Assembly: GCA_019637875.1 (NCBI GenBank)
Contig: JAHBUW010000015.1
Location: 1-64,000 of the forward strand
DNA length: 64,000 nucleotides
Direction: 5' to 3'
From: Pseudobdellovibrionaceae bacterium
GTDB taxonomy: Bacteria > Bdellovibrionota > Bdellovibrionia > Bdellovibrionales > Bdellovibrionaceae
Both the position numbers and the translations under genes were made by a program. Positions 5,406 through 40,924 of this stretch are shown here, in pieces. The number at the start of each line of letters is the position of its first letter. Within the stretch, counting starts at the first letter, position 1. Below the pieces are notes generated by a model. The model was not told the DNA's origin and searched no databases. It saw only the letters and a list, made by a program, of their open reading frames with translations.

Positions 5406-6107
5406 TTATCTGAGGCGGCGCCAGAACAGAGACGGACCTTGCAGTGTGGCGTCCCCTAAAATCCACAGCGGCGTTCGGCTTTCATTGATCAGGATCAAGC
5501 CGAAGTCCGTTTGGCGCTCACGGACGTAAGTTTCGAACCAGGGCTTCAGGTCAAAACACAGGCGGGTGTCGCCCTGACAAAAGCTCGCTTCCGCGTCCTT
5601 CGCGATACTGGTGTGATTGCTCGGGAGCGGCTCGAGGCAGGCGCTGCTTTCGAAATCGCCACCGGCCGCGCCCCAGCCTCCGCCTTTATAGGGATGCGCT
5701 TTGGACCAGGTCGCGAGCATCATCCAATTTTTCGTCAGCGGGCAAAGTTTCAGCGCCGGTCGCGCGGCGAGCGCCAGATCCGCGTCTTTCGTTTCGATTT
5801 TCAGTAGCAGCGCCTGCTGGTCCAGGATCTGGTAGCTGGACGGTTTCAGCGACGACAGACGCAGCAGCACGCGGTTCCGCTCGTCGACCGGATACGACGC
5901 CGCTTTCAGCGTGCGGTCGTCGTCGCTTTTGCGGATGTCGGCCGAGATCAGCTTCACCTCGTCGCTCGCGCTGCGTACGACTTGCGTCTGCTCTTTGATG
6001 TTGGGATCGCCGAAGCCCATGACCTGGCCGCAACCGGTCAGCGTCGACGTCCATGTCACCGCGATGGTCGAGAGGGTCAGCCCTTTGAGGAGTTGCAGTC
6101 TCTTCAT
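5406..6107 (-). CDS. Putative lipoprotein of unknown function
   Basis: 233 residues. A signal peptide ends in a lipobox STLTGC with lipidation at C26. The mature part begins GQVMGFGDPN and is mixed alpha/beta without transmembrane segments; it has three later cysteines (KLCPL, SACLEP, SFCQG, RLCFD region). I do not recognise the fold. It lies 11 bp downstream of the 501-residue secreted protein in the same operon, so an envelope role alongside that protein is plausible. Confidence 0.75.
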   Translation of the reverse strand: MKRLQLLKGLTLSTIAVTWTSTLTGCGQVMGFGDPNIKEQTQVVRSASDEVKLISADIRKSDDDRTLKAASYPVDERNRVLLRLSSLKPSSYQILDQQALLLKIETKDADLALAARPALKLCPLTKNWMMLATWSKAHPYKGGGWGAAGGDFESSACLEPLPSNHTSIAKDAEASFCQGDTRLCFDLKPWFETYVRERQTDFGLILINESRTPLWILGDATLQGPSLFWRRLR

Positions 6108-6118
6108 GTCGTCCTTCC

Positions 6119-7624
6119 TTAGAACTGAATGGCCAGGCTCGTCCCGGCGTAACCTTGTCCCGCACCGTGACCCATCAGATCGGCGACATCATCCAGCTTG
6201 GCGCCGGGGGTTCCGTCAATGATTTGGTACGCGAAGAGTTTCCAGTTGAGCGCCTCGTGATTATAACCCAGCTCGGGGCCGAATTTGACGATGCGCAGCC
6301 GGTCCGCGGGTTGCGTGAAGGTCCCCGAAACCGCTTCGACCTCGTATCCTTGCGACAGCAGAAGATCCCCTTTCAGCCCCGCGGTGAAGCCGCGGTACTT
6401 GCCCCCAAACGCGATCGACGCGTTCGTGAGCCCACCGAATTTCTGCCGGTATTTGGTGTTCGAAACCGTGAACTCCGATTCCGACGGCAGGCTGTAGCTC
6501 AGGAAGTTTTCCGAGTAGAAATGTTCGCCTTCGCGGCGCATGGACACCCCGAAGGTGGTGACGTCGCGCGCTTGGGGCATGTTTTTCAACTCTTCGCTCG
6601 ACAGCGTGTACATCGAGTGCTCGCCGTAGAGCTCGACGTCGAACTGGCGCCAGGTCGCGAGCAGATAACGTCCCGAAACCTGGAGCGGTCCCAGGTAGGA
6701 CCGGTCCGGCAAACGCACGAACGAAAAACTGAGGCCCATGCCGAGCGCGTTCGGACCGCGACCGAAGGGGTGCAGGAAGCTGTCGAGCCGCTGCATGCCG
6801 AGGACGGGCGTCGACTCGTCCTCATCGCGCGCCTCTTTGTCGTAGACCAGGAACGAGTAGCGGAAGAACGAGGGGCGTTTCAGGCGCTCGGTCACGGCGG
6901 GCTCGAAGGGCTCCATCGCCAGCGCGCCGCCATTCGGGGGGAGGGCGACCACGGGACCCTGAGCGGCGGCGGTGGCGGCCCGGGCATTTTGGAGTTTTTC
7001 TTCTGCCCGTTCCACCGCCGCCACCGTGATCGACTTCGCGCGGTCGAAACTCGCGTTGGGATCGGTCAAAGCGAGCGTGATTTCCGAGACGACCGATTCG
7101 TCCTCACGAACGCTTTCGGGAAGGGCGCGGTGCAAAGCTTCGTGAATATGCAGATTGATCAGTTGTTGTTCGGACAACATGAGCGCCGCCGGGAAAAAGC
7201 GCGTCGCCGCGTAGGGACGGGCGAAGGTGCGGGCGTAGACGTACTTGCCGTCGGGCGAGACCTCTTGGCCCTTGTCGAAGTCCTTCGGCACCGCGATGTT
7301 CTGGTGCACGAGGTAGATCTCGGTGCGCTCGACCTCTTCGATCAGATTTCCCAGGTAGGGGATCTGGCGCGTGCCCATGTCCTTCAGATGTTTCGCGGCT
7401 TTTTCGCGGGTGGTCTCGAGGATGCCGCTGGTCACTTTCTCTTTGTGTTCGAGGTCGGCTCCGTCGTCGCCGTTACCCACTTTCGTGGTGCTCTGCTGGT
7501 CGATCGCGGGCGCGGTCGCGCGGGCTTCGCCAAGCAGAAAGGTCGCGAAGATCGCGCAGGCCAGGACGAAACCGATGACGGGTTTCAAAACGAATTTCAG
7601 CGGAGTCAGGATTTCGGTTTTCAT
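6119..7624 (-). CDS. Secreted or outer-membrane protein, unknown, in TIGR02147 operon
   Basis: 501 residues with an N-terminal signal or anchor segment (FVLKPVIGFVLACAIFATF, then GEARATA). Residues 55-220 are helical and charged and contain HIHEALHRALPE, reminiscent of a metal-binding helix but not a standard HExxH. The C-terminal 270 residues alternate polar and aromatic residues and end in LAIQF with a terminal phenylalanine, which suggests an outer-membrane beta-barrel. Its start overlaps the stop of the upstream regulator gene by 4 bp (ATGA), indicating translational coupling. No function assigned. Confidence 0.7.
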   Translation of the reverse strand: MKTEILTPLKFVLKPVIGFVLACAIFATFLLGEARATAPAIDQQSTTKVGNGDDGADLEHKEKVTSGILETTREKAAKHLKDMGTRQIPYLGNLIEEVERTEIYLVHQNIAVPKDFDKGQEVSPDGKYVYARTFARPYAATRFFPAALMLSEQQLINLHIHEALHRALPESVREDESVVSEITLALTDPNASFDRAKSITVAAVERAEEKLQNARAATAAAQGPVVALPPNGGALAMEPFEPAVTERLKRPSFFRYSFLVYDKEARDEDESTPVLGMQRLDSFLHPFGRGPNALGMGLSFSFVRLPDRSYLGPLQVSGRYLLATWRQFDVELYGEHSMYTLSSEELKNMPQARDVTTFGVSMRREGEHFYSENFLSYSLPSESEFTVSNTKYRQKFGGLTNASIAFGGKYRGFTAGLKGDLLLSQGYEVEAVSGTFTQPADRLRIVKFGPELGYNHEALNWKLFAYQIIDGTPGAKLDDVADLMGHGAGQGYAGTSLAIQF

Positions 7625-8415
7625 GTTTGCGAGCTCCCTTTGGTCAGCGGAAAGAGGGCGACTTCGAGTTGGTAAACGTTTTCTTCTTTGGGACGATGGA
7701 ACTTGTTGCGAACCATGTCGGTGAACTGGTCGATCTCGATTTTCAGACGTTTCAGGTCCGTCGCGCGAACGACCAGGCCCACGCCCTGGAATTCACGCTG
7801 GTCGACCGGCACGGTCTCGAGGCTTTCGGCGGCCTTTTCCAGAATCTGGCGGTGGTATTTACGAATTCCCGCCGAGGGGATTTGCGCGCCGACCTGCCAA
7901 TGCGCTTTCGCGCTCTGGGCGCCGCGGCCCTGGAAGGTCACGAAGCCGAGCTTCTCGAGGTTACGCATCGCGAGCTTCGCTTCGGTCAGGGTGATGCCCA
8001 GGCGTTGGCTGATGTGCGCGGCGGACCACTCGAAGTTTTTGGCCTCGAGCAGATTCAGGATCGCGAAGTGGTACCAGTCGCAGACGCGCTCGAAGTCCGC
8101 GGTCGAAAGCCCGGGGGCTTCGGGCTCGGGACCCGAGAGGAATTCCAGCGGCAGGCCCAGGCTGCGGCCCTTCTCTTTTTGCAGAAGCAGCAGGAAGTGT
8201 TTGGTTTCCGACGGCGTGAAGCCCATCGCCTGGGTGACTTTGAAGGCGGAATTCAAACTGAGTTTGCGCTGGCCCTTCAGGACTTGCGACAACTCCGCCG
8301 GATTCAGGCTCAAAGCTTTGGCGAAAGCCCGGAGTGAGTAGCGCGAGTTGCGCTGCACACGTTGGCCGAGCTCGTCGTGCAGATATTCGGTGATGGAATC
8401 GTAATCGAAGATCAT
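7621..8415 (-). CDS. TIGR02147 family protein, likely transcriptional regulator
   Basis: 264 residues. The N-terminus matches the TIGR02147 pattern: YLHDELGQRV, then NSRYSLRAFAKAL, then LSQVLKGQRKLSL, which reads as a helix-turn-helix. A second winged-helix-like part (about 115-190) contains ISQRLGITLTEAKLAMRNLEKLGFV. The family is abundant in Bdellovibrio and Fibrobacter-like bacteria. It is the first gene of a coupled five-gene operon, and four TGTNACA heptamers lie just upstream, which suggests autoregulation. That regulatory link is inference. Confidence 0.85.
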   Translation of the reverse strand: MIFDYDSITEYLHDELGQRVQRNSRYSLRAFAKALSLNPAELSQVLKGQRKLSLNSAFKVTQAMGFTPSETKHFLLLLQKEKGRSLGLPLEFLSGPEPEAPGLSTADFERVCDWYHFAILNLLEAKNFEWSAAHISQRLGITLTEAKLAMRNLEKLGFVTFQGRGAQSAKAHWQVGAQIPSAGIRKYHRQILEKAAESLETVPVDQREFQGVGLVVRATDLKRLKIEIDQFTDMVRNKFHRPKEENVYQLEVALFPLTKGSSQT

Positions 8416-8469
8416 GAGCCCGTTATCCGGCGCTCTTTGCGGAAAGACAAGGGGTGGGTGGGAGTGTCT

Positions 8470-8506
8470 TGTAACAAAGTGTTACAGATGTGTCACAGAT
8501 GTAACA
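8470..8506. promoter_or_regulatory. Four phased TGTNACA heptamers (candidate operator)
   Basis: TGTAACA (8470-8476), TGTTACA (8480-8486), TGTCACA (8491-8497) and TGTAACA (8500-8506). Each heptamer is itself a palindrome around its central base, and start-to-start distances are 10, 11 and 9 bp, about one helical turn. They sit 55-91 bp upstream of the TIGR02147 operon start. A matching pair occurs at 38856-38872. Confidence 0.6.
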
Positions 8507-37220: not shown

Positions 37221-37482
37221 GGGGTCTCCTCAGAGAGTGGGTTAGGGGCCGCATTGCGACTCGTCATGCTCGATAGCTAGGCGCACACGAGGGGTCAAGT
37301 CAGGGGGAGGTCAGGGCTGTGGGACAGAAAGAGCTTTCCAGAAGTGCTCAATTTGAGGGCATGAGAGATCGTCTCAAGGGGGGACAAAATCCCCGAAAAT
37401 CGCGTCGAACTTCGAGACACCTGTCGAATTGTTCAACCGGTTTTTGGGGCTCCTCCGCTATTCTGAAAGGGCAGGGGGAATC

Positions 37483-38832
37483 ATGCGCCGTCCAATCGTC
37501 TTCGCATTGACCATCGCCGCGATCGCGACGCTGACCCTTTTCCAAAACTGCGCACCCACGCAAAATTTCGATCTGGAGCAAGCTCCGCAGGCTTCGTTGA
37601 ACGGTGAGGACGCTTTGCCCGCGCCGGTCCTGCCCGAGCCCGCGGCTCCGGCGGCCCCGCCCGTGGAAGAAGAGGTTGAGCCGACGCCCGAGTGGCCCGC
37701 GACGGCCGGAGTGTATTGCCCCGCCGATCGTCAGCCGCAAGTGAAGGTGGCCGTCATCAACATGGATGGCGCGAATCTTTTGTCCGCGTCGTTGAGCGGT
37801 CTGCGGAATTCGGGAACCGAGCTTTCGGAGCTGACGATCTATTTGAAAAAACCGAATTACGGGAAGGTCTCGGCGGCCGCGCTGATGTCGATCGGCGCCT
37901 CGCCGATTCTGGCGGCGGGTGGATCGCTGCTGGATCGCAACTTCATGTTGGAGTTCACGGGACACTTACAACTTTCGCCGGGCGCCCTCTCGGGTGATTA
38001 CCAGCTGGTGGCGCGGCATTCGGGGTATTTGAACGTGAACCTCGACAATATGGATGTGCTCTCTAAAAAGTCGGATCTTGAAGGCGTGCACGTGACCTGC
38101 GGCGCGAAGCTTTCGGGCCTGCGTGTTGCGGATCAGCTGCCCTTCGTGATCCGTCAGGTGCATGGCGTGGCCAACGACGCGCAACTCGAGCTGTTCTTGC
38201 GTCCGGCCACGGGCGATCTGTCGAAATGCGGTGACGACATGGGCTCGTGGGTGGCGTTGAACGATGGAAACTTCGTTCTCGAGAAAGACGGAGAGAACCT
38301 CGTGAAGAACGGCAGCTTCGAGGACGACGCCGCGATCCCGTCCGCTTCGGCATATCATTATCCGGGCGGCCTGAAGAACTGGACGAGCACCGGCGGGATG
38401 GAGCGCTGGTCGAGCAATATGCACGGGCTCCTCTCTTCGCACGGCTCACACTATATCGAACTCGATAAAGACACCGCCTCGTCGCGCGACGCGATCTACC
38501 AGATTCTTTCGGGCCTGCACGTGGGGCAGAAGTATCGTTACCTCTCGGAGCACGCGCTTCGTCCCGAGCAAGGGAGCGTCGAAACCAACCAGGTCGAGGT
38601 CCGCGTGGGCACTCGCGCCGGCACGAGCGCGAACTTCAACCGCACCGTTCTCGAGACGGTCGTGGGGGCGGGGAACAAACGTTGGAAGGGCTACTCGTAC
38701 ATCATCACTCCGTCGGTCAGTGAACTGGAGATTTCTTTCGCCGAGCCGTCCAGTCGTAACGACTCGATCGGCGGCATGATCGACAATATCGTTTTCCGTA
38801 AGATCGCGGACTCTTCGGGCAAGTGCCGGTAA
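37483..38832 (+). CDS. Large FQNC-type lipoprotein with carbohydrate-binding-like C-terminus
   Basis: 449 residues from ATG 37483. The signal IAAIATLTLFQNC gives C23 as lipidation site with Asn at -1. A Pro/Ala/Glu-rich spacer (45-75) is followed by two domains. The C-terminal one (about 275-445) begins ENLVKNGSFEDD and contains LKNWTSTGGMERWSS and GSHYIELDKD, like galactose-binding-like folds of DUF642/PEP-CTERM type. A surface role in ligand binding is inference. Confidence 0.72.
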   Translation: MRRPIVFALTIAAIATLTLFQNCAPTQNFDLEQAPQASLNGEDALPAPVLPEPAAPAAPPVEEEVEPTPEWPATAGVYCPADRQPQVKVAVINMDGANLLSASLSGLRNSGTELSELTIYLKKPNYGKVSAAALMSIGASPILAAGGSLLDRNFMLEFTGHLQLSPGALSGDYQLVARHSGYLNVNLDNMDVLSKKSDLEGVHVTCGAKLSGLRVADQLPFVIRQVHGVANDAQLELFLRPATGDLSKCGDDMGSWVALNDGNFVLEKDGENLVKNGSFEDDAAIPSASAYHYPGGLKNWTSTGGMERWSSNMHGLLSSHGSHYIELDKDTASSRDAIYQILSGLHVGQKYRYLSEHALRPEQGSVETNQVEVRVGTRAGTSANFNRTVLETVVGAGNKRWKGYSYIITPSVSELEISFAEPSSRNDSIGGMIDNIVFRKIADSSGKCR

Positions 38833-38855: not shown

Positions 38856-38872
38856 TGTAACAGTCTGTAACA
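38856..38872. promoter_or_regulatory. Pair of TGTAACA heptamers 10 bp apart
   Basis: TGTAACA at 38856-38862 and 38866-38872, one helical turn apart, 53 bp before the lipoprotein start at 38926. The motif matches the four-copy array at 8470-8506, so the same regulator may act on both. Confidence 0.45.
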
Positions 38873-38925
38873 AGCTTCGCCGCGCCGGCATTGACAGGCC
38901 GGGTGGCGGCTTCAAGAATGGGCCC

Positions 38926-40452
38926 ATGAGACGTTCCCTTTTTGGTGGATGGTGTCTGATCTTCGGGTCGCTTCTTTTGGCGGGGTGTTCGACCCTGAAG
39001 CAGAACGCCGCCGAACTTCTGGAAAAGAAAGAATACGGCGACGCGCTGGCGATCTACGAGCGCGTGCTCGCCGACTCTCCTCATGATGCCGAAGCCCTGT
39101 CGGGCCGCAATCAGTCGCGCTTGGGGCTGATTCAAAAAGAACTCATCGAAGTCCGGTTTCTGCGCCTGAGCGGCCAGCAATCCCAGGGGAACGAAACGCT
39201 ACTGCGTATTTTAAATCGGGTGAAAGACTGGAGCCTTTATCCGGAAGGCCCGGTCGCGTTCACGCAGTTCGAAGAGATGAGCTTCGCGTCGCGCGCGGTG
39301 GAAAAGGACGTGGTCGAGGCGCTCGCCCGACGCCGTCCGTTCCGCGCCGCCGCCGATCTACAGAAGTGGGCGGCGCTCTTTCCCGCCGAGCGCGGAACGC
39401 AGCTCGCGCAGCTGAAAGATCGCACCAAAAATCTGGGCATCGAGCAGTGCGCGAGCTGGCGGGATCAAGCCCCTGGCGAACCTTTCTTCGCGCGTTTTCT
39501 TTGGCGCAGTTGCGGGCTGTGGGGACAACCCGAGATGTCGCTGCCCCCCGCGCCCGAGCTGTTCGCGTGGCTTGAACCGCGGCTGCGTTGGTTCGACGCG
39601 CGTCCGGATCCCGCATTGGAAATCCAGCTGCGCGAAAAACTTCAGACCGCGTTTCGCGAAAGTCCCTGGTTCGACGCGAATGCCGGCAACGTCGCGCTCG
39701 CGCAGGTCGAGCCGCGCTACCGCTTCCGGGAAACCCGAACTCCCGTCGAACTCGTGCATGCTTACCTGGTACAGGTTCCCTACGATTCATCCGAGGTCGT
39801 GGAGCTCAGTCGGTGGGTTCCCGACGACCGGACCGAGAGCGTGCGCGATTCTTCGGGACAATACAAAACCGAGGTCGTTCGCGGCAGTCGGCAGGTTCAC
39901 TACACCGAGATGCGCACGGTCACCCGGATGCGCGATGAGGTCCGCTCGATCCCGTACGACGCTTTGAAAATCGAGTTGGAAGGAAATCTGGATTTCGATT
40001 TGCGCTTCGACAGCGCGCTTTTCGACGATGCGAAGAAAGTCTACTCTGCGCGTGAGGATGAAACCCTGATCCAGCATGGAAACGATAGCCCCGACGTCCG
40101 TTTGAAACCGCAAAATCCGCGCGTTCCTTCGTCGGGCGAGGTCTTCGGGGATTTGGCGGGACGGCTGACGAAAGAGTTCGGCGCGGAGCTCGGGTCTTTG
40201 TGGCGCCGCAAGTTTTGTCGCGCGCCGAAAGGGACGAAGTGGTCGGCCGTGGCCGAGAACGTCCAGAAGTGTCTTTACGGAGCGGGTGGGGAAACGCCGG
40301 ACTACGCCGAGCAGTGGCTCAATCGGGAACTCGGCGTCACCTCGGTCGAGCTGAAAGCGCTGACCCAAGGGCTGCCGAGCGCTCCGGCGGCGAAGCCGCT
40401 TAAACTCCGGAATCTTTCAAGCGCTTCAGAAACTCGAGATCCCGGTCCATAA
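38926..40452 (+). CDS. Lipoprotein with TPR-like N-terminus, unknown
   Basis: 508 residues. The lipobox SLLLAGC lipidates C21. Residues 25-80 form a TPR-like helix pair (KEYGDALAIYERVL). A beta-rich part follows at about 270-340 with VPYDSSEVVELSRWV. The C-terminal part has two cysteines (KFCRAP, QKCLYG). The 3' end overlaps the convergent zinc/histone gene by 53 bp. Confidence 0.75.
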   Translation: MRRSLFGGWCLIFGSLLLAGCSTLKQNAAELLEKKEYGDALAIYERVLADSPHDAEALSGRNQSRLGLIQKELIEVRFLRLSGQQSQGNETLLRILNRVKDWSLYPEGPVAFTQFEEMSFASRAVEKDVVEALARRRPFRAAADLQKWAALFPAERGTQLAQLKDRTKNLGIEQCASWRDQAPGEPFFARFLWRSCGLWGQPEMSLPPAPELFAWLEPRLRWFDARPDPALEIQLREKLQTAFRESPWFDANAGNVALAQVEPRYRFRETRTPVELVHAYLVQVPYDSSEVVELSRWVPDDRTESVRDSSGQYKTEVVRGSRQVHYTEMRTVTRMRDEVRSIPYDALKIELEGNLDFDLRFDSALFDDAKKVYSAREDETLIQHGNDSPDVRLKPQNPRVPSSGEVFGDLAGRLTKEFGAELGSLWRRKFCRAPKGTKWSAVAENVQKCLYGAGGETPDYAEQWLNRELGVTSVELKALTQGLPSAPAAKPLKLRNLSSASETRDPGP

Positions 40453-40924
40453 CGGTCTTGCGTCCGTCGGCCCGCGCGTTGTCGATCGCGCGGTCGGCGA
40501 TCATTCGTAAATGATCCGACAGCACTTCCATCACCGACGCCGACGTATTCATGTCGGCGCGCGCTTGGATGTACTCTTTCATTCTTGAGGCGATCACCAA
40601 AACTTCGCGCGGTATCGCGGCCGCACTGGCGGGGGCGGACGCCGCGGTCGACCCGCCGGGACGCACGATCAGGCGCGCGGGGGCACGTTCGCTTGCGCCC
40701 TCGGCCGTCGCCGAAGCGGGCGAGGTTTTTTCGATGGCGCCGGCATCGCGGTGACGGGCACCGGGAAGATGCGTTTCGAAACATTGCATGCGGCAGAACA
40801 CATAGCCCGTGCGGTTGCCTCCGCAGGTACTGACGCTACAGACGTAGTAGGGGGCTTTGAAGCCGATCGGTTTTTTGCAGACGCTGCACTTCTTCCAGTG
40901 ATCCAAACTGATGTCTTCGCTCAT
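40400..40924 (-). CDS. Zinc-finger protein with C-terminal histone fold
   Basis: 174 residues. Cysteines C13, C16, C29, C34, C44 and C48 with H52 form a zinc module (CSVC, YVCSVSTC, FCRMQC). A disordered Ala/Pro/Ser linker (60-103) leads to a histone fold at about 104-170: IPREVLVIASRMKEYIQ (helix 1), SVMEVLSDHLRMIADRAIDN (helix 2), then GRKTVMDRDLEFLKRL. The last segment matches the loop-2/helix-3 RKTV-x-x-D signature of archaeal histones and H4. Bdellovibrio has histones used as chromatin proteins, and zinc-linked bacterial histones have been predicted. DNA binding is therefore likely; the zinc part may bind DNA or a partner. Confidence 0.8.
   Translation of the reverse strand: MSEDISLDHWKKCSVCKKPIGFKAPYYVCSVSTCGGNRTGYVFCRMQCFETHLPGARHRDAGAIEKTSPASATAEGASERAPARLIVRPGGSTAASAPASAAAIPREVLVIASRMKEYIQARADMNTSASVMEVLSDHLRMIADRAIDNARADGRKTVMDRDLEFLKRLKDSGV

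Follow-up and report, generated by a model that had tools for sequence, protein, structure and literature searches.

The window that we analysed, a stretch of 64,000 nucleotides from a Pseudobdellovibrionaceae bacterium, carries a gene for a regulator of the TIGR02147/DUF4423 family at the head of a three-gene operon, and elsewhere a lipoprotein gene that is preceded by the same kind of sequence array (Table 1). The barrel predicted for the second gene product of the operon is like those of FapF and EspP (model mean pLDDT 66). This protein family has no Pfam or NCBIfam match and usually adjoins a TIGR02147 gene; homologues of the barrel gene were found in 14 of 143 genomes of the class, our own genome included, and also on five contigs, three of which represent genomes already found. 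Of the 15 homologous loci, some of which are cut by contig ends, 7 have a homologue of the third operon gene next to the barrel gene. Around the second array, the gene just upstream (37429-38832, forward strand) encodes a lipoprotein-like protein with a choice-of-anchor C/DUF642-like C-terminal domain. A 174-residue protein is encoded at 40400-40924 on the reverse strand; its C-terminal part matches the histone-fold structures 8cmp and 8fvx (E ~5e-11), and its N-terminal part is Cys-rich and zinc-ribbon-like, the Cys pattern having been read by eye.

Table 1. Genes, operators and predicted promoter elements, in positions of the window.
Feature	Position	Strand	Remarks
Operon gene 3	5406..6107	-	lipoprotein, 233 aa
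Operon gene 2	6119..7624	-	invariant HExxH (H161-E162-x-x-H165); predicted C-terminal outer-membrane beta-barrel
TIGR02147/DUF4423 regulator gene	7621..8415	-	264 aa; recognition helix ~39-46 with A40, Q44; downstream of the first phased array
Predicted -10, GATAAC	8422..8427	-	ends 6 nt before ATG, leaderless-looking; consensus match only
Predicted -35, TTGTCT	8445..8450	-	28 bp from operator centre; consensus match only
Proximal operator, 21 bp	8468..8488	-	centre 8478; gene-direction sequence TCTGTAACACTTTGTTACAAG
Extra half-site TGTCACA	8491..8497	.	11 bp from preceding heptamer
Extra half-site TGTAACA	8500..8506	.	9 bp from preceding heptamer
Second operator, TGTAACAGTCTGTAACA	38856..38872	+	centre 38864
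Predicted -35, TTGACA	38891..38896	+	27 bp from operator centre; consensus match only
Predicted -10, AAGAAT	38914..38919	+	ends 6 nt before ATG; consensus match only
Predicted target gene	38926..40452	+	lipoprotein, weak TPR match, 508 aa; downstream of the second phased array
Lipoprotein gene on contig C4, outside the window			233 aa; downstream of the third phased place

The preliminary description of this DNA reported a helically phased array of four self-palindromic TGTNACA heptamers before the regulator operon and a matching pair at 38856. The arrays are real and their spacings are as described: the heptamers start at 8470, 8480, 8491 and 8500 (steps of 10, 11 and 9 bp) and at 38856 and 38866 (a step of 10 bp), and all six in the window fall inside the two phased arrays, 8470-8506 and 38856-38872. 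Their bare number is ordinary (six seen vs 4.2 expected) and was dropped as evidence. Pairs spaced by 9-11 bp occurred in none of 300 first-order Markov windows, vs four such steps in the real window. A search of the whole genome (3.98 Mb, 30 contigs) bore out the phasing, insofar that TGTNACA-N2..4-TGTNACA was found at three places only (C15:8470-8506 and C15:38856, both in the window, and C4:23370), and the reversed-pattern control gave no match. Each of the three is intergenic and upstream of a gene; the chance reading, by which phased heptamers would be as frequent inside genes, thus found no example in this genome. Allowing one mismatch added two weak places (C1:254508 and C8:176489), which we do not count as regulon because the control search gave one. 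Among 58 relatives, eight had one match each, so that the pattern is present in 9 of the 59 genomes searched, our own included; the reversed control matched in 4 of the 58.

The unit of the arrays is larger than the heptamer first proposed, and consists of a dyad of about 21 bp, TTTGTAACA-N3-TGTTACAAA, together with extra half-sites. The window example is at 8468-8488, and the C4 site is perfect, TTTGTAACA-GTT-TGTTACAAA. Read in gene direction, the three sites of the genome have TGTAACA-N3-TGT(A/T)ACA in common, and the core of the proximal operator, ACACTTTGT, recurs with the same letters in the operators of distant paralogues.

The regulator is a member of its family by curated cut-off, with 107.8 bits against TIGR02147 (NCBIfam cut-off 50; residues 1-258 on positions 4-271 of the 272-position profile) and 115.6 bits against DUF4423 (PF14394, cut-off 30). 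Its score against the HTH_3 profile was 19.7 bits (cut-off 23). An assignment as the antitoxin of a HigBA toxin-antitoxin pair was rejected, since the protein stayed under the cut-off of the HigA equivalog (24.8 vs 47.7 bits). In the AlphaFold model (mean pLDDT 69; 74-92 by 10-residue block over HTH residues 5-85) the N-terminal domain has a lambda-repressor-like fold, and residues 40 and 44 lie inside the recognition helix, 39-46. The closest solved HTH folds are HigA/GraA antitoxins, several of them with operator DNA; the best VIA-align rows were 2eby, 9chn and 6chv, at Z ~9. A sequence match to 2icp (E=6e-4) covered the HTH span only, and a Foldseek search with the whole regulator found nothing at E<=0.001. 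Like this regulator, HigA/GraA antitoxins combine a lambda-repressor-like N-terminal HTH with a palindromic operator upstream of their own gene; here, however, no toxin partner was seen, a winged-helix and DUF4423 region is added, and the operator core is ACA-N3-TGT with phased extra half-sites. A literature search for a HigA paper giving Arg40/Thr34 contacts returned nothing relevant. The lambdoid phage repressors (434, 933W) offer a second comparison: according to PMC3317979, the recognition-helix residues S41, K42 and K46 (helix positions 1, 2 and 6) read bases in the 933W repressor model, and here it is A40 and Q44, at helix positions 2 and 6, that co-vary with bases. The regulator differs from the phage repressors in that no prophage was seen and that many paralogues exist, each beside its own site.

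Conservation of the arrays follows the regulator. In another genus (genome G025), a phased pair lies 45 bp upstream of the orthologue, which is 45% identical (next best match 38%), and this pair is the sole match to the pattern in that genome. The next two genes are syntenic with the window operon, at 45% and 37.5% identity. Just upstream of the TIGR02147 gene of G025 is a homologue of the C4 lipoprotein (35%), with a degenerate phased array in front of it as read by eye; the gene that has the distant site in one genome is consequently the neighbour of the regulator in the other. In a second relative (G044) the match is likewise found directly upstream of a TIGR02147 gene, and the matches in the other six had no TIGR02147 match within their 1.5-kb flanks. 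More distant orthologues were recognised by synteny with the barrel gene. Of the 15 homologous loci compared, 14 have a TIGR02147 gene next to the barrel gene, the exception (L085) being close to a contig end. Upstream of many of these orthologues we found TTTGGAACA-N3-TGTTCCAAA or close variants, that is, the same frame with one base, G for T. TGTNACA itself was found upstream of none of the orthologues at barrel loci except that of G025, and the orthologue of G113, in which residue 44 is Gln, has no visible upstream site.

Does the family as a whole carry such sites? Of 144 genomes of the phylum that were searched, 126 have TIGR02147/DUF4423 regulators, in many cases ten or more each, and we gathered 92 distinct genes (after removal of one duplicate from 93), then 60 and then 70 more, 222 altogether. 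The first motif test used 90 of the 92, genes with less than 100 bp upstream being left out. Of these 90 upstream regions, 17 contained ACA-N3-TGT with flanks complementary at 4 or more of 6 positions; the same was true of 9 among 2923 other windows, and shuffled sequences gave 0.13. When dyads were sought at -120 to -25 irrespective of motif, the odd gaps 1, 3, 5 and 7 were present in 34, 37, 39 and 30 of the 90 regions, vs about 5.5% of 4654 control windows and 10-14 of 90 for even gaps. The odd-gap excess was confined to genes of a YSLRAF-like HTH subclade (112 YSLRAF-like vs 68 other upstream regions), and it recurred in 52 new YSLRAF-like genes from other families (gap 3 in 28 of 52 vs 41 of 1035). 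No odd-gap excess was seen for the canonical TIGR02147 proteins with high scores, of which 30 loci were pooled with the remaining non-YSLRAF genes.

A called site, with core ACA-N3-TGT and variable flanks, lies upstream of 73 of the 222 genes, vs 4-8 of 222 in five equal-length coding windows. The orthologue of G091, cut by a contig end, and that of G025, whose direct-repeat form fails the calling rule, are outside these 73. Extra half-sites at most 40 bp upstream accompany 51 of the 73 operators (9.2 expected), which makes the phased array a trait of the family. Under the calling rule 103 of 166 YSLRAF-type genes have no site, and among the 56 genes with the other HTH type, 10 have site calls as well; of the site-less genes of all types, nine have a variant with a 1-bp spacer. 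The 1-bp-spacer variant, TGAAACA-N-TGTTTCA, often in phased triples, was noted upstream of L032, L033, L034, L044, L105 and L106. In our own genome, one paralogue (C9:88474-88521 of G000; L021, L223, L224) is preceded by a pair of perfect TCGAAACA-N3-TGTTTCGA operators at a distance of 29 bp; this sequence occurs at exactly two places in the genome, both upstream of that paralogue. TGTNACA was rejected as the family-wide motif, since no TGTNACA pair was found at any of the other TIGR02147 loci of the genome and the distant orthologues are without TGTNACA. TGTNACA is particular to the window regulator, and the family-wide part is ACA-N3-TGT.

The variable flanks co-vary with the protein. The recognition-helix residue that directly follows LS (residue 44) seemed to set base c-6; this rule was written first, and two new gene sets were fetched afterwards. 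Glu or Asp at residue 44 went with G at half-site position 6 in 15 of 15 training, 9 of 10 first-validation and 11 of 11 second-validation cases, vs 1 of 12, 1 of 6 and 6 of 19 for other residues (pooled, 35/36 vs 8/37, p=6e-12). Near-identical paralogues stay in these raw counts; merged into one unit per 50% cluster, the figures are 20 of 21 vs 7 of 28 (p=5e-7). The positive half of the rule, that Glu or Asp goes with G, held in both new sets, whereas its negative half, that G is absent with any other residue, held only in part, the eight exceptions with G being mostly Ser, Ala, Gly and Asn. Counted by half-site, G was found with Glu in 41 of 48 and with Asp in 22 of 24, C with Arg in 8 of 8, A with Lys in 6 of 6 and with Leu in 8 of 10, and G with Gln in 1 of 26. 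These pairings would be chemically sensible if residue 44 reads the complementary strand (Arg with guanine, an acid with cytosine). When the first 110 residues of the protein were scanned, Q44 ranked top for c-6 and A40 for c-5. Over the full length, z for c-6 is greater at His188 and at Asn38 than at Gln44, and lineage structure thus contributes to the co-variation; the residue-44 effect persists within strata of residue 188 or 38. The window protein and that of G025 have Gln with T, and most of the orthologue clade has Glu with G; this joint change of residue and base explains why TGTNACA is seen in our own genome.

The preliminary description took the arrays for a site that a single regulator binds, implicitly the TIGR02147 protein, and this is now supported by the conservation in G025, the lipoprotein neighbour there and the family palindromes that co-vary with the helix. 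On these sequence comparisons, the array is very probably an autoregulatory operator of the adjacent protein. A competing explanation is that an OmpR/PhoB-type response regulator, independent of the TIGR02147 protein, binds here to direct repeats of 10-11 bp, insofar that TGTNACA-like heptamers resemble OmpR/PhoB-type half-sites (TGTCACA/TGTAACA), that the steps are 9-11 bp, and that the pairs at 38856 and in G025 read as direct repeats. We regard it as very unlikely, since the family sites are odd-centred inverted repeats, distant orthologues swap TGTAACA for TGGAACA, and the base concerned co-varies with the TIGR02147 recognition helix. Dyads are common between genes, and for the other HTH type intergenic regions were indeed somewhat richer in them whatever the gap; chance, or a terminator or RNA hairpin, could account for single sites. 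For the whole family this is refuted and hardly credible, considering the 0 of 300 Markov windows, the excess in odd gaps only, the common core and the co-variation of bases with protein residues.

The sign of regulation is a separate matter. HigA/GraA antitoxins are autorepressors, and as a sub-case of autoregulation by the TIGR02147 protein, differing in sign, it is possible, if somewhat doubtful, that the regulator is a simple autorepressor of this kind and that the position of the operator relative to the -35 is incidental. The kinship of the HTH folds favors this, as does the finding that no single operator-to-promoter distance fits all sites. Against it, the operator centre lies 49-55 bp before the ATG in 41 of 73 family sites, and in part of the sites (10 of 43) the start of the best -35 is 16 bp beyond the centre, which leaves the core promoter free; the window sites are 27-28 bp from their predicted -35. 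With operators just upstream of the predicted -35, activation or positive autoregulation appears somewhat likelier than simple blocking, as far as consensus matches can show. The promoter match of the C4 lipoprotein gene was poor. In 14 of 43 sites only 6-7 nt separate the end of a predicted -10 from the ATG, which suggests leaderless mRNAs for many TIGR02147 genes.

The computed sites, their subclade association and their co-variation with residue 44, together with the conservation, point to TIGR02147 proteins most likely binding their own promoters through an odd-centred operator, here shared with two lipoprotein genes. The N-terminal lambda-repressor/HigA-like HTH of a dimer would read the odd-centred palindrome of about 21 bp, of which the core is nearly constant and the flanks vary among paralogues; the flanks would be read by recognition-helix residues, chiefly 44 (base c-6) together with 38-40. 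Extra half-sites at steps of about 10 bp could bring further subunits, perhaps cooperatively, to the same face of the DNA. In response to a putative signal, the regulator would probably control its own operon, with the HExxH/beta-barrel protein and a lipoprotein, and the two other lipoprotein genes; our best guess is an envelope function under local control.

In the open-licence literature we found no operator, target or signal in print for any TIGR02147/DUF4423 regulator. The terms TIGR02147, PF14394 and Fsuc_second were not found there, and DUF4423 was met as one protein named in a table. The family's namesake is Fibrobacter. With a defined operator and a predicted specificity residue, tests of binding, regulon and specificity swaps become immediate, and targets can be predicted from sequence. 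We think it rather probable that in the YSLRAF-type subclade, with its many paralogues per genome, a constant core is combined with a readable code (residue 44 as Glu/Asp for G, Arg for C, Lys or Leu for A, Gln for a base other than G, and residues 38-40 for neighbouring bases), so that each paralogue has, next to its gene, an operator almost exclusive to it. Predatory bacteria and their relatives would then possess numerous local switches insulated from each other, in this case acting on envelope genes, and the TIGR02147 operators may provide a natural collection of regulatory parts with little crosstalk.
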